The notes: generated by a model from the sequence alone, not told the origin. Positions 7,061-21,969 are shown, counted from the stretch's first letter. The stretch is 23,671 bases of DNA from a virus (IMGVR_UViG_3300032242_001526:1-23671); one strand, 5' to 3'. Numbers and translations: made by a program.

Positions 7061-7504
7061 TTATTTATCAGTTGAATATTCGTAATTAACTGTTTCTATA
7101 TTTTCTCTAAAAACAATTGCTCCGTTCTTCATATGGAATCGTCTTGCTACTTCTGTCTTTGGGCTGAGAGTTACAAACCTAGTTACACTTGGGTATTGTT
7201 CTTGTATCCCTTTAACGGCTTGAATTAACAAGTCACGACCTTTACCTGCTTTATAACTCCAGATGGTATAGAATACTGCTGTAGTTGGTACTTGTGAGGT
7301 TTCTTTCAAATCATTAGTATCTGCAGGAACAAAATCATGAAAGCTAACGCATACCATTGCATCCGGATCATCTTGATTGCTAGCAAGCGCAGCAACCATT
7401 CTACCATCACTAACTCTAAAGTCAGTAGGTATTTCTGGACGAACAGGATCGTCTTTGATAAAATTTAATAATTGGTGTGTGATGTCTCTGATGAAGTGTA
7501 ACAT
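7061..7504 (-). CDS. GNAT-like acetyltransferase fold protein
   Basis: 147 residues. The pattern VFYTIWSYKAGKGRDLLIQAVKGIQ followed by RFVTLSPKTEVARRFHMKNGA resembles the central part of a GNAT N-acetyltransferase (a glycine-rich turn before helix 3, then a strand and the C-terminal motif) and a conserved phage protein I recall from cyanophage-like genomes. Substrate unknown. The start at 7502-7504 is used, since the longer frame to 7648 runs into a divergent gene; TATAAATA lies 16 bases upstream with a weak AGAG site between. The 3' end overlaps the promoter box of the next gene. Confidence 0.65.
   Translation of the reverse strand: MLHFIRDITHQLLNFIKDDPVRPEIPTDFRVSDGRMVAALASNQDDPDAMVCVSFHDFVPADTNDLKETSQVPTTAVFYTIWSYKAGKGRDLLIQAVKGIQEQYPSVTRFVTLSPKTEVARRFHMKNGAIVFRENIETVNYEYSTDK
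7062..7069 (-). promoter_or_regulatory. late-type box GATAAATA
   Basis: Minus-strand box with five bases (AAAGT) to the ATG at 7056; it overlaps the stop of the upstream 7061-7504 gene. Confidence 0.6.
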
Positions 7505-7520
7505 GGTGTTCTCTTTTTTG

Positions 7521-7528
7521 TATTTATA
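7521..7528 (-). promoter_or_regulatory. late-type box TATAAATA
   Basis: Exact T4-late-like box on the minus strand upstream of the 7061-7504 gene; 16 bases to the ATG, containing AGAG. Confidence 0.62.
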
Positions 7529-7573
7529 CAAGGACGCAAAATATGCTATTATTTTGTTGGTATTTGGAACACC

Positions 7574-7581
7574 GATAAATA
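7574..7581 (+). promoter_or_regulatory. late-type box GATAAATA
   Basis: Plus-strand box five bases (TCACT) before the ATG of the PP-loop gene at 7587. Confidence 0.6.
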
Positions 7582-7586
7582 TCACT

Positions 7587-8474
7587 ATGTCAGAAGTTAT
7601 ACAATGGTCCACTGGTCTAAATGGATACAAGAAACATATATTAGACAATAACGATTTTACTACAGAACTAACCGAATGTCAATTTGAAACGGGTAGAAGT
7701 GTGGATGACATGTTCTATGACCACGTAGTAGATCGTCCAAGTAGTCCAGTTGAATTACTGTACAGTGGTGGATTGGATAGTGAATTGGTTCTTATGTCAT
7801 TGTTGAGGTTGAAGATCCCAGTAGAAGCAATGACTATGGTCATCACTATCAAAGGTGCAATACTCAATGTTATAGACCTTTACTATTCTGAAAAGTTTTG
7901 CAGAGAAAACAACGTCAAACAAAATCTATTTTACTTTGATGCAATTGACTTCTATGAAGGCGAAAAGTATTTAGAGTATGCGCTACCATTAAAAATCACA
8001 GAACCGCATGTTCCTAGTCACATGTGGTTGATTGAGCAATGTCATAACTATCCAATTATTGGTGGCGATTGGCCCTGGCTACAAGCAGAAAAAAAAGTAT
8101 TGAGTCCATTCAAGTTGGCATTCAGTAGCTATGAACGATTTATGCAATCAAAGAACATACCGGGTATAGGCAACATGATAAGTCACAGCTTTGAATCTAG
8201 TTACCATTTTATTGAACAGCATATGAGAGAACATGAAAAGGGCAATGATAAATTTCATACAGTACCTTTCTTAAAGTACAAGATGTATGGTACGAAGGAA
8301 CCTAGAATAAAAAGTTATGGTTGGGAACAATGTCCTAGAGAACTTTTTACCATTACTAAATATCAAATTGAATTATTAAAACAAGTTGGAATACCCAAAT
8401 CTAACATAGTTTGGGGTGCTCAAATTTCTAATTTAATTGGTTCTACCAAAACATCTAACAACCTTTTTACATGA
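7587..8474 (+). CDS. PP-loop ATP-pyrophosphatase-like protein
   Basis: 295 residues. The PP-loop signature SGGLDS lies at 60-65 after the strand VELLY, which is the ATP alpha-phosphate-binding motif of N-type ATP pyrophosphatases (asparagine synthetase C-domain, QueC, ThiI, MnmA and relatives). There is no glutaminase domain, so it is not a full asparagine synthetase. The family adenylates a substrate carboxylate, thiol or base; the substrate here is unknown. The start at 7587 is chosen because the late box ends five bases upstream; the in-frame extension to 7377 crosses the divergent gene's promoter and start. The stop overlaps the next ATG as ATGA. It pairs in type, not in orientation, with the 9039-10229 protein. 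Confidence 0.75.
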   Translation: MSEVIQWSTGLNGYKKHILDNNDFTTELTECQFETGRSVDDMFYDHVVDRPSSPVELLYSGGLDSELVLMSLLRLKIPVEAMTMVITIKGAILNVIDLYYSEKFCRENNVKQNLFYFDAIDFYEGEKYLEYALPLKITEPHVPSHMWLIEQCHNYPIIGGDWPWLQAEKKVLSPFKLAFSSYERFMQSKNIPGIGNMISHSFESSYHFIEQHMREHEKGNDKFHTVPFLKYKMYGTKEPRIKSYGWEQCPRELFTITKYQIELLKQVGIPKSNIVWGAQISNLIGSTKTSNNLFT

Positions 8475-9046
8475 ACACGCATGAATCATTTTCTCATAGT
8501 CTAGTTGCTAGTAAATTGTGGCTGTGCGAAAGACTAGAACAGGCTCTTGATAATGAAAGTATCAGAAATCCTGCAGTTAACATATTAGCAAGTTGGGACA
8601 GTTTGTTAGCATTTATGATGCTGACAAGACGACCTAGATTCTATGGTGTTGTTAATTCGTATGACATTGATCCGGTATCAACTATCAACGCAAACAAATT
8701 GTGCGACCATTGGTTGTTTGAATATCCAAAAGTTTATAACCATACAAGAGACATAAACACCCTTGACTTTAATAACACCGGAAGTGAATCTATCTTCATC
8801 AATTGCAGTGTTGACCAATTAGATAACACAAGTTGGTATGATGTTATACCTGACAACAGATTGGTGTGTTTTCAATGCACAGACTTGCCAATTAATACTA
8901 ATGATTGGGATATAAAGCAAAGTTATGCTGACATGTCAATGTTTACCGAAACATATAAAGTTCGCAGATTGATTTACTGTGACTCAATCAACATCAACTA
9001 TGAGCATTTAAAATTCAAACGACACATGATGATTGGTATCAAGTAG
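8471..9046 (+). CDS. conserved phage protein, possible methyltransferase fold
   Basis: 191 residues. NPAVNILASWDSLLAFMML (33-51) followed by FYGVVNSYDIDP (57-68) looks like the first two strands of a class I SAM-methyltransferase fold with an acidic residue at the end of strand 2, and VCFQCTDLPINTNDW could be motif IV. The family is one I recall as a conserved unknown in T4-like phages. It is coupled by ATGA to the PP-loop gene and converges on the second PP-loop gene with an 8-base tail overlap. Methyltransferase activity is only an inference. Confidence 0.65.
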   Translation: MNTHESFSHSLVASKLWLCERLEQALDNESIRNPAVNILASWDSLLAFMMLTRRPRFYGVVNSYDIDPVSTINANKLCDHWLFEYPKVYNHTRDINTLDFNNTGSESIFINCSVDQLDNTSWYDVIPDNRLVCFQCTDLPINTNDWDIKQSYADMSMFTETYKVRRLIYCDSININYEHLKFKRHMMIGIK

Positions 9047-10229
9047 AATCTTTCATATAATATTTTTTAGCATATACCCCTAGTGTTCCCATGTACGGGT
9101 CACCTTGGTTGAATATGTTAGAAAAATCTTTTTTCAAGTAATTCATTGCATCAGAAAAGTTTAATGCGCTTTGCCATTTGGCACTTAATGCAGTTTCAAG
9201 TACACGTTGTAGTGCAGGTTCACGGCCGTTTAACTTGTGTTTACTCTTACCATTTTGAATAGATAACTCAACATTCCAAGCTTCACCTCGGCCAGATCCT
9301 ATACAAAAGTCATCATAGTATTCACTATGACTATTACCGCAATACTCTTTTAGAAACTCTTCGGTTATCGTATTAGTATTCTTAACATTATTAGATGTTT
9401 TAATAGCAAATGATGTTACCGGAGCTCCTAGTGTGCTATTAATCAACGGATCAAGCTGTTCAGGTGTGTAAATTAATTTACCGTAGTTTCGTTCAATATG
9501 ATTCAACAACATCCAAGACTGTTTAACATGCATTTTTGGCATGTCCGGAGCATAGTAAAAGTACTCAAGATTAGGAATATCACTAATGAATGTTTCCAGT
9601 GTCTTATCAATAATAGTCGAATAATACTTACCGTCTTCAATTAATAGTCTTGGTTTATCAACTCCCAATATTAAACCATGACTAGGTTCATCTGCATGTA
9701 GTATTTTCTTTACATAATATTTGAAGTCACTTGGTTGAAAGTAACCGTGTACCAATGCAGTTGATGTGTCTTCAAGCCAGTCATCCTTGTAATATTCATC
9801 AAATTTGTCAGGAGATACTCCTACTGTTTTAACTTGTGTGTTAGGATAAACACGAATAAAATTCATTACCTGAGGATAGATATAGTTAATTAATTGAAAC
9901 TGTCTTTCAGGATTAGTTGCATAGTCAACTAAAATGATTTCGTCAAGTGGAATTTTAAAGTGGTAAAAGCAACGTAGCACATGGTGACTATCACGACCAG
10001 CACTATAAAACAAACTAAGTTTCTTGTACCGCTGTCGCAACATCATGCATCGCTCATAACACATGCGATCCCATGACTCTATTGGTTCAGTAGTCCAATC
10101 CATCTTATCATATTCTTCTTCATAAAAATAGAAGTGTGGCTTTGTACCTATTTTTGCAGCGGCTCTCCAGGCATCAAATTGACTAGAAGTTCGTTGACCA
10201 TCAACTATCCAATGCGGTAAATAAGACAT
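9039..10229 (-). CDS. second PP-loop ATP-pyrophosphatase-like protein
   Basis: 396 residues. SAGRDS at 76-81 after the strand LSLFY is the PP-loop, and ILVDYATNPERQFQLINYI after it is the usual second strand and helix of this fold. The C-terminal half is unrecognised. It is not a close copy of the 7587-8474 protein. The start overlaps the stop of the Bug-type binding protein by one base (TAATG), so the two are made from one mRNA; this link between a periplasmic solute-binding protein and a cytoplasmic ATP-using enzyme is unusual. Substrate unknown; amide, thiol or nucleobase ligation are all possible for the fold. Confidence 0.75.
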   Translation of the reverse strand: MSYLPHWIVDGQRTSSQFDAWRAAAKIGTKPHFYFYEEEYDKMDWTTEPIESWDRMCYERCMMLRQRYKKLSLFYSAGRDSHHVLRCFYHFKIPLDEIILVDYATNPERQFQLINYIYPQVMNFIRVYPNTQVKTVGVSPDKFDEYYKDDWLEDTSTALVHGYFQPSDFKYYVKKILHADEPSHGLILGVDKPRLLIEDGKYYSTIIDKTLETFISDIPNLEYFYYAPDMPKMHVKQSWMLLNHIERNYGKLIYTPEQLDPLINSTLGAPVTSFAIKTSNNVKNTNTITEEFLKEYCGNSHSEYYDDFCIGSGRGEAWNVELSIQNGKSKHKLNGREPALQRVLETALSAKWQSALNFSDAMNYLKKDFSNIFNQGDPYMGTLGVYAKKYYMKDST

Positions 10230-11110
10230 TATTTTCCTGTAGTATTTTTTACAATTTGTCTAACTTCTTCAGTTGACAATGAGACCGGGTAAGAACCAAT
10301 CTTTTCCAATTTTTCAATGATTTCTTTATCTTTGTTGCAAGTATGAATAACGTTTACAATCATTTGTTCTTTGTCCTTTGGTGTAGTAGGCAATGTACTC
10401 AATACAATTCCTAATGGCATCTTTCCCAATTTAGGAGAATATTTTTCTATATTAGAATGATTATACTTGATAGCCGTGCTTTTATCTAATGTACTGGTAA
10501 AAATTTCTAACTTTTCTCCCTCAACCAAAGCTTTTGTACCCATAAATGTATCACTAGAAAAATCGATTGTGTCACCGATCACATCCGAAATTGCGCCTAC
10601 ATTATTTTTGTAGGGAATAATTTGATATGGAATCTTTAAATCAATAAACAACTGTTCAGCGATATATGTCCCCGACAAGAATGAAGATCCTATATTAATT
10701 GGTCTGATTTTACTTAATTCTCTGATATCATTAATGGATTTAAATTTACCTTTTTTTGCTACAATGGCAACAGGTCCTGCATTAGTATAAGTTAAGGGAT
10801 GTATGTCTTCAAGCAAATCGATTCCTGGAAATTTACTAAGCATGTTCAATCCGAAATTACCTGCAAGTACATGTGTTAATTGAGGGGTATCTACTGCCTG
10901 TTGAAATGCTTTGATTGCGACAAGACCGTCGGCCCCTGGTTTAAACTCTTTTAATACTAATAAGTTTTGAGTTTTAATGCAAGGTGCATATGTATCTAAT
11001 GCTGTATCTGTGCCAGAACCTGGGCCTGTAGACAGAATAAATTTCAAAGTGTGTTGTTGGGCATTAGCGATACCAAACGCTAAAAATAATAATGCTAATA
11101 GTTTTTTCAT
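10229..11110 (-). CDS. Bug/TctC-type periplasmic binding protein 1
   Basis: 293 residues with a Sec signal peptide (MKKLLALLFLAFGIANA, about 1-17). The mature part follows the Bug pattern: a GPGSGTDTAL phosphate-loop-like turn near the N-terminus, then a KEFKPGADGLVAIKAFQQA segment matching the GAxGxxAAxxxAxA element, and LPTTPKDK near the end. Bug proteins bind carboxylates (citrate, glutamate, nicotinate and others) in the periplasm, usually for tripartite tricarboxylate transporters; no transporter gene is present here. AATAAATA lies five bases before the ATG, predicting a leaderless mRNA. It is followed by the PP-loop gene in the same operon. Unusual cargo for a phage. Confidence 0.78.
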   Translation of the reverse strand: MKKLLALLFLAFGIANAQQHTLKFILSTGPGSGTDTALDTYAPCIKTQNLLVLKEFKPGADGLVAIKAFQQAVDTPQLTHVLAGNFGLNMLSKFPGIDLLEDIHPLTYTNAGPVAIVAKKGKFKSINDIRELSKIRPINIGSSFLSGTYIAEQLFIDLKIPYQIIPYKNNVGAISDVIGDTIDFSSDTFMGTKALVEGEKLEIFTSTLDKSTAIKYNHSNIEKYSPKLGKMPLGIVLSTLPTTPKDKEQMIVNVIHTCNKDKEIIEKLEKIGSYPVSLSTEEVRQIVKNTTGK

Positions 11111-11115
11111 TAAAC

Positions 11116-11123
11116 TATTTATT
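11116..11123 (-). promoter_or_regulatory. late-type box AATAAATA
   Basis: Minus-strand box, five bases (GTTTA) before the ATG of binding protein 1. Confidence 0.55.
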
Positions 11124-11171
11124 GAGAGATAAAGCTCACTTTAGATTTCCTAGTAGCGAATTAGTACGTCA

Positions 11172-11219
11172 AGCCAGCAGCCGGCTACACCGCGGTAACG
11201 AGTACCGGTCCTAAGGTGT
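11172..11219 (-). other. GC-rich structured intergenic RNA segment
   Basis: This starts directly after the stop of the 2OG oxygenase gene. It has ACACC/GGTGT (11187-11191 with 11215-11219) enclosing CGGTA/TACCG (11193-11197 with 11203-11207), then AGCC/GGCT (11172-11175 with 11183-11186). It may act as a 3' stabiliser or weak terminator; there is no long T-run. Short stretches look like universal rRNA sequence. Confidence 0.5.
11201..11213 (-). repeat. 13-nt intergenic element, copy 2
   Basis: Minus-strand TAGGACCGGTACT, one mismatch from 5383-5395. Both copies sit just downstream of minus-strand genes. Confidence 0.5.
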
Positions 11220-11223
11220 GTTT

Positions 11224-11913
11224 TTACCAGAATGAGGTATTCTCATTCAATTCATGTTTGTCAAATCTTGCTAATCTTTTTAGAAAGTCATTTGTCTTTT
11301 CAGTAATAACTCCTGTCAATTGAAATGTAACTCTTGGATTATGTCCTGCATTAGCGGTACAGTGAGGTATATTCTGCCAATCAAATGTTGTCACATCTCC
11401 GGCACGCCATTGTTGATGTTGGTAGTTTCCATAACTCCAAAAATGACCCTGTTCCCAATCATTTAATGCAATCATAACACGCATAACACGCCATGGCTCT
11501 TCGGGTGCCCATTTTTGTAATTTGTCAATGTGCATAGTCCATGCTTCGCCGGGCATCTGCACATGTATCCTTTCCATGCAGTCATCCAATGCAAACAACT
11601 CACTAATCTTTTTCAAGTTAGGAGTCAATTTCCAATTCATATGAGTGATAACTGATTTTGTATCTACGCCGGCACGTTGTAAATCATATTCTTCTGCTAA
11701 TAAATCTTCTCTAGGTGGTAACACACCTTCACCCTTGTAACCACGAGTTTCCCACGTTGCTGGTTTTGATGTTTCTACCGCATGTTTAACATCTTCGCTA
11801 TAGTCAGCAATTATTCTACCCAATCTTGTTACTTTGTCAACTTGCGGGTCGTTCTTAAAATTATCAAAGTGATAATTACTTTTTGCTTTTGTTGTGTCCC
11901 AACTACTAATCAT
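11224..11913 (-). CDS. 2OG-Fe(II) oxygenase, aspartyl/asparaginyl hydroxylase-like
   Basis: 229 residues. The iron triad is readable: H128 and D130 in MHID, and H184 in NIPHCTANAGH, with R194 in PRVTFQL as the 2-oxoglutarate-binding arginine. The spacing fits the cupin fold of the aspartyl beta-hydroxylase group, which hydroxylates protein or small-molecule substrates using O2 and 2-oxoglutarate. I recall near-identical proteins in T4-like cyanophages, next to the same two partners as here. The start overlaps the previous stop as ATGA; it is the last gene of the 11224-14137 operon. Substrate unknown. Confidence 0.82.
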   Translation of the reverse strand: MISSWDTTKAKSNYHFDNFKNDPQVDKVTRLGRIIADYSEDVKHAVETSKPATWETRGYKGEGVLPPREDLLAEEYDLQRAGVDTKSVITHMNWKLTPNLKKISELFALDDCMERIHVQMPGEAWTMHIDKLQKWAPEEPWRVMRVMIALNDWEQGHFWSYGNYQHQQWRAGDVTTFDWQNIPHCTANAGHNPRVTFQLTGVITEKTNDFLKRLARFDKHELNENTSFW

Positions 11914-12542
11914 AGTGTGTCCTTTATTCCACTTACTTTTCTTACAAGACTATCTAACTCTTGTCTTTCAATACTTTTAAAATATTTGCTATTTGCATCT
12001 TCTGCTAGTATATTATTTACTCTAGGATCGTCATATGCTATAGGAAAGTCTAACTGCTTAGATAATCTTTGTAAATATTTACCCTTATACAAATACAATA
12101 GTTCTTGGCTTATAAATACTGGATCCAATGTCATTAGATACTCAAGCGGTTCATCAAAGTCGGATAAACTAACTCTGTCTCTTACCCTACATTGTTGATG
12201 CTTTAAAATATTTTGATCTCTGCCAATGATTGCTATTTTGACTTTGATACCAAAGTTTTCTAGTGTCTCAACGAATTGTTTGTATTTAGGTATTGTAACA
12301 ACACCGTGATTTGCGTAGGGGCAACTGATGCTTGTTACATAGTTATCGCAGGTTGACCAATCAATACTATGAATAAGACTGGGTGTGTTCCAGCATTCAC
12401 TAAATGGTTCATGGTCATGAGCAATCCAATACTCATTAAGTAACTCTCTCCAGCCATACACTTGTTTATGTAATGCCATTACTTTACTGAACACGTGATT
12501 GCCTGACCCTTGCGGACCGGTGATAATCAACATTTGTTTCAT
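11910..12542 (-). CDS. P-loop / sulfotransferase-like protein
   Basis: 210 residues. The N-terminus MKQMLIITGPQGSGNHVFSK has a Walker A-like loop (GPQGSGNH, 9-16) in which the usual Lys is replaced by Asn-His, a pattern seen in PAPS-dependent sulfotransferase-like proteins of phages. VKIAIIGRDQNILKHQQCRV looks like the second nucleotide-binding strand. Conserved in T4-like phages as far as I recall. Role unknown; it may transfer sulfate or bind a nucleotide without transfer. It is coupled by ATGA at both ends to the sulfotransferase-like gene and the oxygenase. Confidence 0.7.
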   Translation of the reverse strand: MKQMLIITGPQGSGNHVFSKVMALHKQVYGWRELLNEYWIAHDHEPFSECWNTPSLIHSIDWSTCDNYVTSISCPYANHGVVTIPKYKQFVETLENFGIKVKIAIIGRDQNILKHQQCRVRDRVSLSDFDEPLEYLMTLDPVFISQELLYLYKGKYLQRLSKQLDFPIAYDDPRVNNILAEDANSKYFKSIERQELDSLVRKVSGIKDTL

Positions 12543-13159
12543 ATCACAGTCACTCTTACATCAGACACACCATAGTCTTGATAATAATTACTTGGTGGTA
12601 GTTCTATATTTAGCATCTTGCAAAGCATATGATTAGTTAATGGAACACCTCCAGGATACTTATAATTAGCTTTGACAATACCCTGATTCTGTTCTTTAAT
12701 CTTTTCAGCCATTACTTTCAAGTTCTGATAGTATATACTATAGTCAGGGTATGTAATGTCAAAGTGACCGCACTTGACCCACCACCCTAAACACGCATCA
12801 TCAGGACGATGCACTAACACGATAGGACAATCAGGCCATGTTTCTTTGATATAATCAATGTGATTACTAAACACGTGTGACTTGATGATTCTAACACCGT
12901 CACCGGTGAATGCTTCATCAAAGTCACGCTCTAATGTTTCTTTGTCATACATCGGTAAACGATGAAACAGTTTACCAAACTCCATACCAGGATCATAGTA
13001 TGCACCCAAATGCATTAAATCCAACTTACCACTTGCATCGTGATAATATGTTCTTGCATCACTATAGTCTGATTGGTCAACACTGGGACTATAATAAATG
13101 TTTTTAACTACACTGCTCCATTTACTGCCAGGAGCACCTGCAACGAATATATACTTCAT
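12539..13159 (-). CDS. sulfotransferase-like protein
   Basis: 206 residues. GAPGSKW at 8-14 is a 5'-phosphosulfate loop; RIIKSHVFSNH (about 93-103) and IVLVHRPDDACLGWW (about 114-128) correspond to the 3'-phosphate-binding region and the following strand of PAPS-dependent sulfotransferases. The Walker Lys is present here, unlike in the neighbour. It probably modifies a small molecule or surface glycan. The ATG begins three bases after the stop of binding protein 2 and its stop overlaps the next start, so it is the second gene of a four-gene operon. Confidence 0.75.
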   Translation of the reverse strand: MKYIFVAGAPGSKWSSVVKNIYYSPSVDQSDYSDARTYYHDASGKLDLMHLGAYYDPGMEFGKLFHRLPMYDKETLERDFDEAFTGDGVRIIKSHVFSNHIDYIKETWPDCPIVLVHRPDDACLGWWVKCGHFDITYPDYSIYYQNLKVMAEKIKEQNQGIVKANYKYPGGVPLTNHMLCKMLNIELPPSNYYQDYGVSDVRVTVI

Positions 13160-14137
13160 TTAATCTTTCGACAAGTCAATCTTACTTAGTACAGGCAAGA
13201 AGCTTGCTCTTAATTCATCCATATGCTTTTTCAACCCTGCAGGTGTAAGTTCATCTTCTGCATAGAAAATAACATTAGCATCAATGTATTCTTTGTATTC
13301 ACTGCTACGAACTGCCTTACTAAACTGTTGTTGATACCAAGCAACAATCTCTTTATCTGTTCCAGGTGGTAATTCAATACTCCATGCGGCATATACATTG
13401 ATACCCGGAGCAACAGTGTTTAGTAAAGGAACATCAGGGAACTGAGGCATCTTACGTGTGCCAGTGAATCCAATTGGTTTAACTTTACCACCTTCAATCA
13501 ATGGCTTAGCAACTGCGATAGGCATAATACCAAACTCAGTACCTGTCTTACCATCATACTGCGCTACACTAGTAACTGCTGGCAATGGACCGTTGAACTT
13601 GATACTTTTAACAGTGTCTTTGTTTCCATTACCCTTATCCAGTAGATACTCAAATGCTGTTCTATGTGCTCCACCGCCAATAGCAACGTTGATGTTTCTG
13701 CTTGATTGAATATATTTGATAAACTCTTGCGGTGTGTTAATTCCACTCTTTACACTAGCAACTAATACTAGAGGACTCTTTCCCATTGTCAATACGTCAA
13801 TGAAGCTGTCGTAGTTATACTTCTTAATATTCTTTTCCCAAATATCATTGGTTACATATGAACTCATATGACTTGGTAGATTGATAGTGTATCCGTCATT
13901 AGGAGCTTCTAAAAACTTGTTGTTGGCAATGACTGAATCAGCACCCGGAATATTTTGTACTACATAAACAAACTTTGGATTAGATTTTTGTACAATCTCT
14001 GCTAGTTTACGAAATGCCATTTCGTTACCAGCACCGGGTGTGTTACCAATATACACTTGCACTGGTTTGATTGGTTCCCATGCAAATGATAACACGGGTA
14101 ATACTGCTAGTGTGAGTGTTGCTAAAAGTTTTTTCAT
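13160..14137 (-). CDS. Bug/TctC-type periplasmic binding protein 2
   Basis: 325 residues. Signal peptide MKKLLATLTLAVLPVLSFA (1-19). The mature protein has VQVYIGNTPGAGNEMAFRKL, then QNIPGADSVIANNKF and APNDGYTINL, the strongest Bug-family signature in the window (typically N-x-x-GAxGxxAxxxxxxAxPDGYTL). A GTRKMPQFPDVPLL segment matches the GxxRxxxLPDVPT element. It should bind a carboxylate in the host periplasm. The start at 14137 is fixed by a GGAGGAAC ribosome site; the in-frame extension to 14356 runs over the promoter. It heads the operon with sulfotransferase-like, P-loop and oxygenase genes. No TctA/TctB membrane genes are present. Confidence 0.85.
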   Translation of the reverse strand: MKKLLATLTLAVLPVLSFAWEPIKPVQVYIGNTPGAGNEMAFRKLAEIVQKSNPKFVYVVQNIPGADSVIANNKFLEAPNDGYTINLPSHMSSYVTNDIWEKNIKKYNYDSFIDVLTMGKSPLVLVASVKSGINTPQEFIKYIQSSRNINVAIGGGAHRTAFEYLLDKGNGNKDTVKSIKFNGPLPAVTSVAQYDGKTGTEFGIMPIAVAKPLIEGGKVKPIGFTGTRKMPQFPDVPLLNTVAPGINVYAAWSIELPPGTDKEIVAWYQQQFSKAVRSSEYKEYIDANVIFYAEDELTPAGLKKHMDELRASFLPVLSKIDLSKD

Positions 14138-14216: not shown

Positions 14217-14945
14217 ATGAACACTAAAATTTTTAAACTCTTACAAGAAAATTTACAGCTTGCGTTTAATTTACCCAAGTACTCTAAAATTTCTATAGAC
14301 GAACAAACTATCGTACAAGACCTACCTTGGACACCCGCACGATATCGTAAATTCAAAGATATAGTTGAAGCAGAATTAAGTCTACCATGCGACTATGTAG
14401 GTACACTTCGTTCTATTACTGACGATTTGTCAGAACGTTATATCCTACGATTCTTTGGAGAGATTTGGAAACCAAGAACAGGTGACTATGAACATACTGG
14501 TTGGGAACTTGCAGATGAGGTCAACAAACTAAATCCAGAAAAAGTATTGGATGTTGGTTGCGGTTATCACCCATTCAAAGGTCGCATTCAAAATTTGATT
14601 GGCATCGATCCATATAATAATCAGGCTGATTATGAAGTTGATATATTAGAGTATAAAGTTAAACCAGAATCACATGATGTTATCATGGCTCTTGGATCAA
14701 TTAATTTTAATTCACGTGATGAAATTGAAGCACGATTTGAACATTGTGTCAATCTATTAAAGAAAGGCGGGAAGTTTTATCTACGTGCTAATCCAGGTAT
14801 CCCGCACAAGACAGGACCCTATGTTGATATCTTCCCTTGGAGTTTTGAAGTTGTAAATGAGTTTGCTGAAAAATACAATCTTAACTTAGATACTTTTAAG
14901 AAAGACAACAACGATAGATTATATTTTGTGTACACAAAACTATAG
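14217..14945 (+). CDS. class I SAM-dependent methyltransferase
   Basis: 242 residues. Motif I is KVLDVGCGYHPFKG (109-122), IGIDPYNN (128-135) ends with the acidic residue that usually holds the SAM ribose, DVIMALGSINF (about 153-163) is motif IV, and LLKKGGKFYLRANPG is the usual motif-V/VI strand. The N-terminal 90 residues are specific and may recognise the substrate, which is unknown. No clear Shine-Dalgarno site precedes the ATG; an AT-rich TATAAAAT stretch is 14-23 bases upstream. It is a single plus-strand gene divergent from the Bug2 operon and ended by a strong bidirectional terminator. Confidence 0.8.
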   Translation: MNTKIFKLLQENLQLAFNLPKYSKISIDEQTIVQDLPWTPARYRKFKDIVEAELSLPCDYVGTLRSITDDLSERYILRFFGEIWKPRTGDYEHTGWELADEVNKLNPEKVLDVGCGYHPFKGRIQNLIGIDPYNNQADYEVDILEYKVKPESHDVIMALGSINFNSRDEIEARFEHCVNLLKKGGKFYLRANPGIPHKTGPYVDIFPWSFEVVNEFAEKYNLNLDTFKKDNNDRLYFVYTKL

Positions 14946-17175: not shown

Positions 17176-18591
17176 TTAACATGCATAACGATAGTTCATG
17201 ATGGTCTTCATCATGATACCTTCTGGGGTGAACTCAGAAGGATCTGCACCTAGCAAACTTGCCATGATGCTTGGGCTAAAGCCAGAGACTAAAGCGGCAC
17301 CACTCTTGTCTGCCTTGACAGGAGCGTTACCGCTACTGTTCAAGTTCCAGAACACTACGCTAGGCGCAGTGTAACCGGCTTGTGCATACTTGCGTTGGAT
17401 CATTTCCATTGCAGAATCATCATGTGTGACACATGAATTGAATTGCATGTCAGAAAGGATCAATAACATCTTAGGCATGTCACTTTCAGGAACGTTGTTC
17501 TTGATTGCAACACTTAGGATCTTGTCCATAGCCTTGTGCAAGTTTGTGTCCATTGCCCACTTAGATTGAACCATTTGGTTGATCTTTTCAACAATGTTAC
17601 CCTTTAGAGTAACCAATTCAGGAGTACCACTGAAAGTCAAGAATGTGTCCTTGAACGCACCCTTGTTCTTGTCAGCTAGGTACAAACCAAGTGACACACT
17701 AACGTCCAAACATGTTACACTACCAGTTCCACCTGCTGGGCAAGTCATAGAACCAGATACGTCTACCAATGGTAGAATGTTTGCATCGTTCATGTAGTTA
17801 GGCAATGCATCCCACTGTGCGGTCACATGATCTAATTCGGTCTTACCCAAAGTAGAACGACCATACGGAGAGATTAAACCCTTCAAGACTTCGTGAGGGA
17901 ACACTGCCGAAGCATTGACCTTCACAGTCTTGTCACCACTCACCAACTTAGCCACATATTCAGCGAATGTCACAGAATGACGGTTGAACGCCTTCTTGTA
18001 GATTCGTGATGCCTGTGAAGGCACATGTGAATAGTTGATGTTGTCCCAGTCGTTGGCACACATTTGTGTTTCAACAACCTTTGTAAGAGCCACAAGACTC
18101 TTACGGTATTGCTTAGGACTCATACCGAAGAATTCACGGATTTCACGTGCTACTTCGCCCTTACGAGGAGTCCACTTAGCTGCTAGTCCATTCTTTGCAC
18201 GAAGGTTGTCACCTAGCAAAGTATATGCCTTAGCCTTAAGATCCTTGTCCTTGAAGACAAATAAGTCATCGAAACGACCTACTTCAGGAATCTTAACTAG
18301 TAGTCGTGCTGCCGCTTCTGGGTCATGCTTTTCCAAGTATGACAATACATCACGGAACAGTTGACGTTCACCTGCACCACCACGTGCGTCACGTGCCCAC
18401 AAAGCCACACGCAGTGCGAGTTCCTTGTCTTGCACATAGGCAGCAGTAAATGCTGGGATGATGTTCTTACCACGGCTTGCGCCGATGTTGTAGAACAAAT
18501 CAACAACCGAGTTAGCAGTTGACTTACGAGCCTTCATACCGTTTGTGGTACGGGCTTCTTGATTTGCGATTGCGTTTACAAATGCGTTCAT
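17176..18591 (-). CDS. DUF2828-type TROVE/vWA protein (Ro60-like)
   Basis: 471 residues. The N-terminal 260 residues contain ALWARDARGGAGERQLFRDVLSYL and IPEVGRFDDLFVF, the helical-repeat signature of DUF2828 and similar to the TROVE module of Ro60/Rsr. The C-terminal part is a von Willebrand A domain with a MIDAS motif DVSGS (277-281), a further Thr in MDTNLHKAMD and an Asp in LLILSDMQF. Ro60-type proteins bind Y RNAs and misfolded RNA; whether this relative binds RNA is not shown. It has AAGGAAAAG before its ATG, a leader of about 265 nt and promoter P7. GC content is visibly higher than its neighbours', suggesting selection or separate origin. Confidence 0.8.
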   Translation of the reverse strand: MNAFVNAIANQEARTTNGMKARKSTANSVVDLFYNIGASRGKNIIPAFTAAYVQDKELALRVALWARDARGGAGERQLFRDVLSYLEKHDPEAAARLLVKIPEVGRFDDLFVFKDKDLKAKAYTLLGDNLRAKNGLAAKWTPRKGEVAREIREFFGMSPKQYRKSLVALTKVVETQMCANDWDNINYSHVPSQASRIYKKAFNRHSVTFAEYVAKLVSGDKTVKVNASAVFPHEVLKGLISPYGRSTLGKTELDHVTAQWDALPNYMNDANILPLVDVSGSMTCPAGGTGSVTCLDVSVSLGLYLADKNKGAFKDTFLTFSGTPELVTLKGNIVEKINQMVQSKWAMDTNLHKAMDKILSVAIKNNVPESDMPKMLLILSDMQFNSCVTHDDSAMEMIQRKYAQAGYTAPSVVFWNLNSSGNAPVKADKSGAALVSGFSPSIMASLLGADPSEFTPEGIMMKTIMNYRYAC

Positions 18592-19082: not shown

Positions 19083-19304
19083 TTATGCGTTTTTTCTAAT
19101 ACGCTTGAGGTATTCTCTACCTACAAGACCTTTTTCAATTTCTTGAAGTGCAGTAACCGTTGGACCTGCTTTTGTTACAAGCTTAGGTTGATGTCCTCGC
19201 TTTAGTTCTCTTACACGCTGTGATGCAATGAGTACTAAATCAAATCGATTACCAACCATAAGTGCGGCTTCTTCACTTGTATACCTTGCTCTGCTTTCAG
19301 TCAT
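19083..19304 (-). CDS. rpoZ: RNA polymerase omega subunit homologue
   Basis: 73 residues. GNRFDLVLIASQRVRELKRG (18-37) is the defining omega/RPB6 core (E. coli RpoZ has GNRFDLVLVAARRARQM in the same place), and TVTALQEIEKGLVGREYL (49-66) matches the second conserved helix TVIALREIEEGL. Omega clamps the C-terminus of beta-prime and helps polymerase assembly. The protein is shorter than the bacterial one, ending right after the conserved helix. AAAGGA lies six bases before the ATG, which overlaps the upstream oxygenase stop as ATGA; tRNA-Trp follows four bases later. Omega genes are rare in tailed phages, so this may let the phage alter or stabilise host polymerase during its late programme. 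Confidence 0.85.
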   Translation of the reverse strand: MTESRARYTSEEAALMVGNRFDLVLIASQRVRELKRGHQPKLVTKAGPTVTALQEIEKGLVGREYLKRIRKNA

Positions 19305-19924
19305 ATTTTTCCTTTAAATAAAAGTTGCTTTGCGTCATTGAAATAAATGTTACCGGGTGTTGTTGACCTTAGTGTCAGTACAATTCTTTCGTTTGTTGAG
19401 GTTCTGTTATCCCAATCATGAAATATATCTGTATTAAACAGTATGCATTCATTTGGTTTTGCAATCATACTTTTTATGGGAGTATGATTTTCTTTTTTAA
19501 ATCCATCAAGTTCTCTTGAGAATTTTTCTAAATGTTTTATAGAAGGATAATCTTTTAAATCATCATCACTATACCAACTAGTAACACACTGGTCATCTAA
19601 AATTTTAATGGTATAGTTAATACTGAATCTATGATTAGGTCCATCTTTATGAGCAGGATAATATAATTCAGGATCAGATTTAAAAAAACTTACTCTATTG
19701 GGATTAAGAATTATGTCTTTAGACACATCTGCACGATTCAATATTGTTTGACCAAAAATAGAATTTAATTTACGATGTGTAAATTTAGCATATACTTTAT
19801 TTACATTATCTTCCCAATTATATTTGTCGTAGACATCCAATGCGTACAAATTAAATTCAGTTAATCCTTTGTAGGTAAATCTAATGTAATAAGGACTACA
19901 GTCTTCAATAATTTCGTATTTCAT
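19301..19924 (-). CDS. 2OG-Fe(II) oxygenase-like protein
   Basis: 207 residues. Probable iron triad H92 and D94 in AHKDGPNHRF and H169 in DIFHDWDN, with R180 in NERIVLTLRS as the 2-oxoglutarate ligand. ILFNTDIFHDWDNRTSTNERI is the typical final strand pair of phage 2OG oxygenases. Not obviously related in sequence to the 11224 protein. The start at 19922-19924 lies nine bases after the CCA end of tRNA-Gly(GCC) and has no ribosome site; the longer frame to 19978 would run through the tRNA. It is translated together with the omega subunit. Substrate unknown. Confidence 0.72.
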   Translation of the reverse strand: MKYEIIEDCSPYYIRFTYKGLTEFNLYALDVYDKYNWEDNVNKVYAKFTHRKLNSIFGQTILNRADVSKDIILNPNRVSFFKSDPELYYPAHKDGPNHRFSINYTIKILDDQCVTSWYSDDDLKDYPSIKHLEKFSRELDGFKKENHTPIKSMIAKPNECILFNTDIFHDWDNRTSTNERIVLTLRSTTPGNIYFNDAKQLLFKGKI

Positions 19925-19933
19925 GATGTTTAC

Positions 19934-20009
19934 TGGAGCGGGAAATCGGGTTCGAACCGACGACCTAGTGCTTGGCAAGCACTCGCTCTACCAACTGAGC
20001 TATTCCCGC
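19934..20009 (-). tRNA. tRNA-Gly(GCC)
   Basis: Acceptor GCGGGAA/TTCCCGC, anticodon loop TTGCCAA, discriminator T, encoded CCA. Directly upstream of the oxygenase-omega pair. Confidence 0.94.
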
Positions 20010-21276: not shown

Positions 21277-21351
21277 TGGTGCTGATGGCGAGATTTGAAC
21301 TCACGACCTCTATCTTACCAAGATAGTACACTACCACTGTGTTACATCAGC
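21277..21351 (-). tRNA. tRNA-Thr(GGU)
   Basis: Acceptor GCTGATG/CATCAGC, anticodon loop TTGGTAA, T-arm GTGAG-TTCAAAT-CTCGC, discriminator A, encoded CCA. Confidence 0.93.
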
Positions 21352-21355
21352 AATT

Positions 21356-21429
21356 TGGAGCGGGGTAAGAGAATCGAACTCTCAGCATTAGCTTGGAAGG
21401 CTAAGGTATTACCACTATACGAACCCCGC
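21356..21429 (-). tRNA. tRNA-Gly(UCC)
   Basis: Acceptor GCGGGGT/ACCCCGC, anticodon loop CTTCCAA, discriminator T, encoded CCA. Its 5' end lies seven bases from a minus-strand CATAAATA box, so the primary transcript may have almost no 5' leader. Confidence 0.93.
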
Positions 21430-21444
21430 ATAAATATATTTATG
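21429..21444. promoter_or_regulatory. palindromic bidirectional late box
   Basis: CATAAATATATTTATG is a perfect 16-bp palindrome giving CATAAATA on both strands. To the right it stands five bases before the ATG of the 21442 gene, which is the palindrome's last codon; to the left it stands just before tRNA-Gly(UCC). Confidence 0.6.
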
Positions 21445-21969
21445 TTACACTATTTTTCTGTAAACTTAAATCTAAACCCTCTTCGTGAGGGCATAGACAT
21501 AAATTCATATGGAAATAACCGCCGCACTAATATTCCATTAAACGATATAAATGATGAATTAGTATCGTTCATACAAAAACTAAATTTAAAAATTGTAACA
21601 GCAGAAATATTCTACACAATACCATTTTCTACTACTGTAATACACGTAGATCGTTATGGCGGTGATTATACTAAACTGAATTACATATACGGTGGCAAAA
21701 ATAGTCTTATGAATTGGTATAAACAAAAACCAAACGTAGTAAAAGAAATTAATAAAAGCAAAGATTATATTGCATTTGTACCGGATGAAGTTGAGTTAAT
21801 TGACAAACAGTCATTACCATTCTCTAGCATCCTACAAGCCGGTGTACCTCACAATATAAATAATTTTAGTGAAAAGAGATATTGTCTTAGTTTAGTCATA
21901 AGTCGTATGGATAATTCTAGATTAACCATGAATGAATCTATTGAAATATTCCAACCATATCACATATAA
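21442..21969 (+). CDS. 2OG-Fe(II) oxygenase-like protein
   Basis: 175 residues. TTVIHVDRYGGDYTKLNYIYG (64-84) supplies H68 and D70, QAGVPHNINN (132-141) supplies H137, and SEKRYCLSLVI supplies R146, the complete iron and 2-oxoglutarate set in order. Short compared with classical dioxygenases, but the spacing is right. It shares only the fold with the two other oxygenases in this window. The ATG at 21442 follows the palindromic late box after five bases with no ribosome site; the frame back to 21295 runs through two tRNAs and is rejected. Substrate unknown. Confidence 0.7.
   Translation: MLHYFSVNLNLNPLREGIDINSYGNNRRTNIPLNDINDELVSFIQKLNLKIVTAEIFYTIPFSTTVIHVDRYGGDYTKLNYIYGGKNSLMNWYKQKPNVVKEINKSKDYIAFVPDEVELIDKQSLPFSSILQAGVPHNINNFSEKRYCLSLVISRMDNSRLTMNESIEIFQPYHI

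Follow-up and report, generated by a model that had tools for sequence, protein, structure and literature searches.

Exported TctC/Bug-family proteins beside ligase-like and sulfotransferase-like enzymes in large tailed phages

Introduction

What would a phage do with exported binding proteins for organic acids when no transporter accompanies them? The question is raised by IMGVR_UViG_3300032242_001526, an IMG/VR virus record of 23,671 bases with 16 tRNA genes (the window, meaning the whole stretch of DNA that was analysed), which encodes two exported solute-binding proteins of the TctC/Bug family, here called BugA and BugB. Known TctC proteins bind carboxylates, orphan Bugs lacking a neighbouring permease gene are common (PMC5812351), and some orphan TctC proteins act in signalling (PMC5812351, PMC8556258). 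The main point of the present analysis, which the initial annotation missed, is the fixed partnership of the phage Bugs with enzymes: a PP-loop protein of predicted acid-activating type in the case of BugA, and a sulfotransferase-like cassette in the case of BugB. The placement of acid-binding proteins beside enzymes that modify small molecules suggests that, during infection, large phages capture an organic acid and alter it chemically.

The window belongs to a phage, as the initial annotation had taken it to: 17 of its genes reappear, their order unchanged, in a contig of 524,565 bases with a terminase gene. Relatives of 345, 339, 352 and 149 kb also encode a terminase, and a terminase match over the cut-off occurs in 7 further records bearing a TctC/PP-loop pair. 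Synteny and the terminase evidence together rule out a fragment of bacterial chromosome.

Results

Two distinct TctC proteins with export signals

BugB, read from an ATG start with an AGGAGGA site, matches the Pfam TctC family (PF03401) with an E value of 1.1e-18 and 68 bits, where the cut-off is 27. BugA taken alone reaches 19 bits (E 8e-4), under that cut-off, and its homologues in three related loci (L002, L019 and L022) score 31–40 bits, over it. An AlphaFold model of BugA, built from 29 phage homologues with a predicted local distance difference test score (pLDDT) of 89, ranks all 11 of the 11 solved TctC/Bug entries first (Z 23–29), the best being 2dvz (Z 29.4, 2.5 Å, 274 residues), before a drop to Z 16.9 for the next class of solute-binding protein. 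The TctC assignment holds for both proteins because of the Pfam match of BugB and the model ranking of BugA, which place the two inside the Bug/tripartite tricarboxylate transporter family rather than outside it. Both N-termini resemble signal peptides (MKKLLA...A-x-A), and a simple home-made heuristic for export signals flags 83 of 92 phage Bugs and, among the partner PP-loop proteins, none of 84; of 623 other open reading frames (ORFs) it flags 60. The two share only ~17% identity and fall in separate clades of the Bug tree; the initial annotation was thus right to see two different exported proteins, each at the head of its own operon, since the window holds two gene runs, BugB–STase1–STase2–2OG and BugA–PP-loop, with gaps of 0 to -4 bp (STase, sulfotransferase-like; 2OG, 2-oxoglutarate oxygenase-like).

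The TctC ligand-loop motif P-F-x-A-G-G-x-x-D (PMC8556258) is degenerate in BugA (TGPGSGTD) and BugB (NTPGAGNE) and closer to the consensus in other phage Bugs (for example PVAPGGLVD), while the PG-x-G and PGA loop residues near the ligand site are retained. BugB is under strong purifying selection, with a ratio of nonsynonymous to synonymous substitution (dN/dS) of 0.04–0.08, and so are BugA (0.06) and its PP-loop partner (0.03).

The lack of a TctA/TctB transporter, noted in the initial annotation, extends across related phages: TctA was found in none of the 40 phage records searched and TctB in none of 16, an absence that is not absolute, as records may be incomplete.

TctC and PP-loop genes recur as pairs in distant phages

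The BugA pair recurs in L002, L019 and L022, and other TctC genes in the related phages adjoin homologues of PP-loop protein B that are 23–28% identical to it. A search of IMG/VR with three partner PP-loop proteins yielded 59 further loci. Across the PP-loop clusters, a TctC gene lies on the same strand within 250 bp in 32 of 51 at a 70% identity cut and in 23 of 39 at 50%. In 29 distinct pairs the gap does not exceed 12 bp, nine of the 29 showing 4-bp overlaps, and either order occurs (PP-loop first in 16, Bug first in 13). Adjacency to TctC persists down to 17% PP-loop identity, and within-pair partner distances correlate (Mantel r 0.54, p 0.0005).

Because the pair queries were already paired members, whole records were also surveyed. 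The records retrieved by way of BugB contain 9 other TctC genes, of which 8 adjoin a PP-loop gene and the ninth overlaps an AMP-binding (ANL) gene. In a second set, leaving aside the query loci and the BugB type, 7 TctC genes remained: 5 adjoin a PP-loop gene, in one case divergently, another overlaps a PaaK-like ANL gene, and the last has neither neighbour. The set also included three BugB-type genes, none with a PP-loop or ANL neighbour; two of the three come with the full BugB cassette.

Binding proteins of a second type, DctP (TRAP-type), recur near the pairs (L084:2934-3878, L048:1359-2318, L087:5449-6441, L143:12019-12534 and L145:2564-3562), the one in L087 assigned from sequence likeness only. 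These DctP proteins have no signal peptide, which suggests that they may serve as cytoplasmic binding proteins in the same modules. Enzymes of natural-product type also stand beside some pairs (L062:3796-5454, L100:1476-2663, L100:6171-7097, L100:7094-7816 and L097:6079-7563); the types represented are tryptophan halogenase, cytochrome P450, acyltransferase, PhyH dioxygenase and carbamoyltransferase.

PP-loop protein B is predicted to resemble the synthetase half of asparagine and beta-lactam synthetases

The PP motif of PP-loop protein B, SAGRDS, occupies residues 76–81, and S76, G78 and D80 are invariant in 45 members. Neither the protein nor its 44 homologues match any Pfam family, and Asn_synthase (PF00733) in particular is not matched in the 45 members at E 0.05. 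Searches of the PDB gave no match with a profile of 8 PP-loop proteins and only a spurious DNA methyltransferase match with a profile of 45; tblastn of one PP-loop protein against the phage collection found none. In a structure comparison with the predicted model, the top ranks are asparagine, beta-lactam and carbapenam synthetases (Z 8.0–10.2 over 230–284 residues, with a Foldseek E of only 3e-3), and the model aligns from residues 1–5 onward to AsnB from about residue 120–142 onward. The alignment begins after the glutaminase domain of the synthetases, and PP-loop protein B has no such N-terminal class-II domain. The best matches in BFVD are uncharacterised proteins from uncultured phages. 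The model thus likens the protein to the synthetase half of these enzymes; likeness rather than membership is claimed, because the Z values are middling, as is common in structure searches, and the model is weak in its C-terminal third.

The BugB cassette

Wherever the flanks are readable in a relative, BugB lies divergent to a methyltransferase-like gene and precedes sulfotransferase-like and 2-oxoglutarate-oxygenase-like genes, the exceptions being L007, with no sulfotransferase-like gene, and L022, with no oxygenase-like gene after BugB. The cassette is present in 17 relatives and two more records. A promoter shared by the methyltransferase-like gene and BugB was considered and rejected, the intergenic gap not being conserved. 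Sulfotransfer_3 is matched by 13 of 15 homologues of the first sulfotransferase-like protein (best E 1.1e-6), the window's own protein falling below the cut-off at 0.017. P-loop protein 2 has no database match of its own; its alignment and position indicate that it is probably sulfotransferase-like as well. The 2-oxoglutarate-oxygenase-like protein is assigned by motif only, because none of the Pfam 2OG families matched in the 14 members of its family, in which H128-x-D130, H184 and R194 are invariant. In several relatives the next cassette gene matches APS_kinase, with E values as low as 1e-11, and its C-terminal part is weakly cytidylyltransferase-like (nucleotidyltransferase-like). The window lacks this gene, and the 525-kb relative has it between the oxygenase gene and BugA; a supply of 3'-phosphoadenosine 5'-phosphosulfate (PAPS) for sulfotransfer would fit.

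Table 1. Positions of the features discussed; a locus handle marks features of related records, and all other positions are those of the window.
Feature	Position	Strand	Basis and context
PP-loop protein A (SGGLDS)	7494..8474	plus	Weak match to PP-loop B profile
191-aa protein	8471..9046	plus	Overlaps PP-loop A by 4 bp; same linkage to BugA pair
PP-loop protein B, 396 aa, BugA partner	9039..10229	minus	1-bp overlap with BugA (TAATG); S-A-G-R-D-S motif; predicted asparagine/beta-lactam synthetase-like fold
BugA, exported TctC/Bug-family solute-binding protein, 293 aa	10229..11110	minus	Model fold; signal-peptide-like N-terminus MKKLLALLFLAFGIANAQ
Conserved, probably structured non-coding element, ~87 nt	11134..11220	minus	Between BugB run and BugA, upstream of BugA
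2-oxoglutarate/Fe(II) oxygenase-like protein, 229 aa	11224..11913	minus	Motif only
P-loop protein 2 (GPQGSGNH)	11910..12542	minus	Alignment and cassette position
Sulfotransferase-like protein 1, 206 aa	12539..13159	minus	Sulfotransfer_3 in homologues; after BugB in relatives
BugB, exported TctC/Bug-family solute-binding protein, 325 aa	13160..14137	minus	Pfam TctC; heads sulfotransferase-like cassette
Class-I methyltransferase-like protein	14217..14945	plus	Pfam Methyltransf_25, E 0.0015, sub-threshold; kept beside BugB
DUF2828/DUF7788 protein	17176-18591	minus	E 1e-25 and 5e-47; adjoins 16-gene tRNA array; in a phage
APS-kinase-like proteins	L159:5960-6763, L010:10853-11650, L014:10910-11755		Follow sulfotransferase-like genes

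Other features of the window

In L002, L019 and L022, PP-loop protein A occurs in linkage with the BugA pair, and the 191-aa protein that overlaps it had no match in a Pfam search. The non-coding element upstream of BugA is near-identical among phages whose BugA proteins share only 53–58% identity, and its exact core occurs in 17 IMG/VR stretches, in some of them beside other genes (L149, L150 and L157). Covariation is complete in its 3-bp stem, which closes a AUUCGCUAC-type loop: 14 double changes were counted, and all 42 of 42 cells are paired. Rfam gave no match; the element is probably a new structured RNA. Within the tRNA array, the ORFs at 19301-19978 and 21295-21969 resemble, by eye, 2-oxoglutarate-oxygenase or prolyl-hydroxylase proteins; a Pfam search of the former gave no match.

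Phylogeny and host

A single branch (94/79) separates 45 phage Bug clusters from 35 bacterial Bugs, and the phage side has long branches. Two Burkholderiales plasmids supply most of the bacterial sample, and what the tree shows is therefore limited: it reveals no recent bacterial donor and does not permit a host to be named. The nearest plasmid-borne bacterial relatives of BugB, at ~25–30% identity, are taxonomically mixed (Rhizobium, Paracoccus, Ketogulonicigenium and also Comamonadaceae). The Burkholderiales-type host proposed in the initial annotation finds no support here, and reading a host from Bug phylogeny was abandoned, the phage Bugs lying outside the bacterial sample.

Discussion

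The arrangement is most simply read as acid capture followed by activation, because an exported acid binder is fixed to one or the other of two unrelated classes of AMP-forming, carboxylate-activating enzyme. The phage may thus carry a two-part module, an exported acid binder with a cytoplasmic AMP-forming enzyme that activates the same acid, and BugB may serve its own cassette likewise, a proposal that we favour at somewhat less than even confidence. In the periplasm of the host, BugA would bind a small carboxylate, and the acid would be imported by the host's own TctAB or another permease, a host permease being needed because the phage has none. In the cytoplasm the partner, usually a stand-alone asparagine-synthetase-like PP-loop ligase and sometimes an ANL ligase, would activate the acid for joining to an amine or other acceptor, presumably to the benefit of the phage. 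BugB would do the same job for its putative sulfotransferase-, oxygenase- and methyltransferase-like enzymes, with PAPS supply encoded in relatives. That large tailed phages in general share such a two-compartment module, a periplasmic TctC acid receptor with a PP-loop or ANL ligase yielding an amide or conjugate specified by the phage, is a broader proposal that we hold still more tentatively.

Several points weigh against this reading. Import through a permease of the host is assumed. The figure of 32 of 51 is inflated, since the PP-loop queries were taken from already paired members, and PP-loop genes with no TctC neighbour exist (L049, L050, L069, L075, L088, L091, L096 and L101). The Mantel test includes close pairs, and the rank correlation is weaker (0.23, p 0.004). 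Additionally, the model of PP-loop protein B has middling Z values and a pLDDT of 74 overall, its C-terminal third being poorly predicted, and an AMP-forming neighbour is absent from the BugB-type genes.

Rather than collecting an acid for activation, the binding protein could stand as a guard or sensor in the periplasm, binding either the exported product of the ligase or a metabolite from host defence. Its purpose would be self-protection, superinfection exclusion or signalling of the kind that BctC directs at a sensor kinase in Bordetella. The missing TctA and TctB genes would suit such a role, as would the ability of TctC proteins to signal (PMC5812351) and the tailoring-type enzymes near some pairs; yet neither an exporter nor a partner kinase was identified and the tailoring enzymes differ from locus to locus, and we regard this account as unlikely. 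The initial annotation's more general suggestion, that the Bugs alter host uptake or signalling, is plausible.

It is distinctly unlikely that the Bugs are plain nutrient auxiliary genes that boost the host's uptake of organic acids, the ligases being incidental passengers of accessory islands. A phage-borne binding protein with no permease does have a precedent in PstS (PMC6359870), and both gene types sit in variable regions, but the genes stay adjacent when PP-loop identity drops to 17% and whichever of them comes first, most pairs having reading frames that overlap, and two distinct AMP-forming enzyme classes share the same slot. Reuse of the TctC fold in the periplasm with no small-molecule ligand, for instance in receptor blocking, lysis or as an aid to DNA entry, would accord with the strong divergence of the phage Bugs from the bacterial sample and with the sub-threshold Pfam score of BugA; it appears improbable given the conserved ligand-site loop residues and low dN/dS, and it leaves the enzyme partners unexplained. 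Finally, there is only a negligible chance that the window is bacterial DNA wrongly sorted as viral, for although TctC genes are typical of bacterial genomes and the sole match in the 'phage' collection, MT836965.1 (L023; GenBank 'Bacteriophage sp.', human faeces), was itself dismissed as bacterial on account of rnf-like genes and of tctB/tctA-like genes beside TctC, synteny with terminase-bearing contigs of 148–525 kb led us to reject contamination, and scans of ~85,000 bacterial and archaeal species genomes with the BugB alignment and with one PP-loop protein gave no homologue.

If capture and activation of an acid is the correct reading, these phages go beyond raising host nutrient uptake and carry, for particular small acids, a receptor with an enzyme to match, re-paired repeatedly across very distant phages. 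The pairing would then offer handles for guessing the function of an unnamed ligase family, the ligand of the binding protein pointing to the substrate of its partner. The open-access literature searched (excluding subscription journals and preprints) yielded no report of a phage TctC protein or of a TctC–ligase pair, the nearest being reviews and a tctA domain match in SUP05 virus contigs (PMC4164917). The TctC family and the phage-borne binding protein with no permease (PstS) are already known; that literature appears to contain no description of the coupling between binding protein and ligase, of how it recurs, or of the unnamed ligase family.

Comparison with known systems

Members of the TctC/Bug solute-binding proteins of the tripartite tricarboxylate transporter family (PF03401) include BugD, BugE, Bug27, TphC, AdpC and MatC. 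The phage Bugs share with them the fold (Z up to 29), the export signal, the PG-x-G and PGA loops and orphan status; unlike the bacterial proteins, they are phage-encoded, lie on long branches outside the bacterial sample, have no TctA/TctB in the record and are fixed to a ligase-like or sulfotransferase-like cassette. PP-loop protein B has the S-x-G-x-D-S motif of asparagine synthetase B and the beta-lactam and carbapenam synthetases (PF00733), and its AlphaFold model aligns with them over 230–284 residues, whereas it lacks their N-terminal glutaminase domain, has no Pfam match in 45 members and is paired with a solute-binding protein. Arylmalonate decarboxylase neighbourhoods, as relayed in PMC5812351 from Maimanakos et al., carry orphan TctC genes and so likewise set a TctC gene beside a carboxylate-acting enzyme; as described there, those loci differ from the phage pairs in being bacterial and in their enzyme class. 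A further parallel comes from cyanophage PstS and similar phage-borne binding proteins; PstS is a phosphate-binding protein carried with no permease of its own and presumably using that of the host (PMC6359870). The phage Bugs resemble it in this respect, but they belong to another family of solute-binding proteins, and PstS has no obligate enzyme partner.

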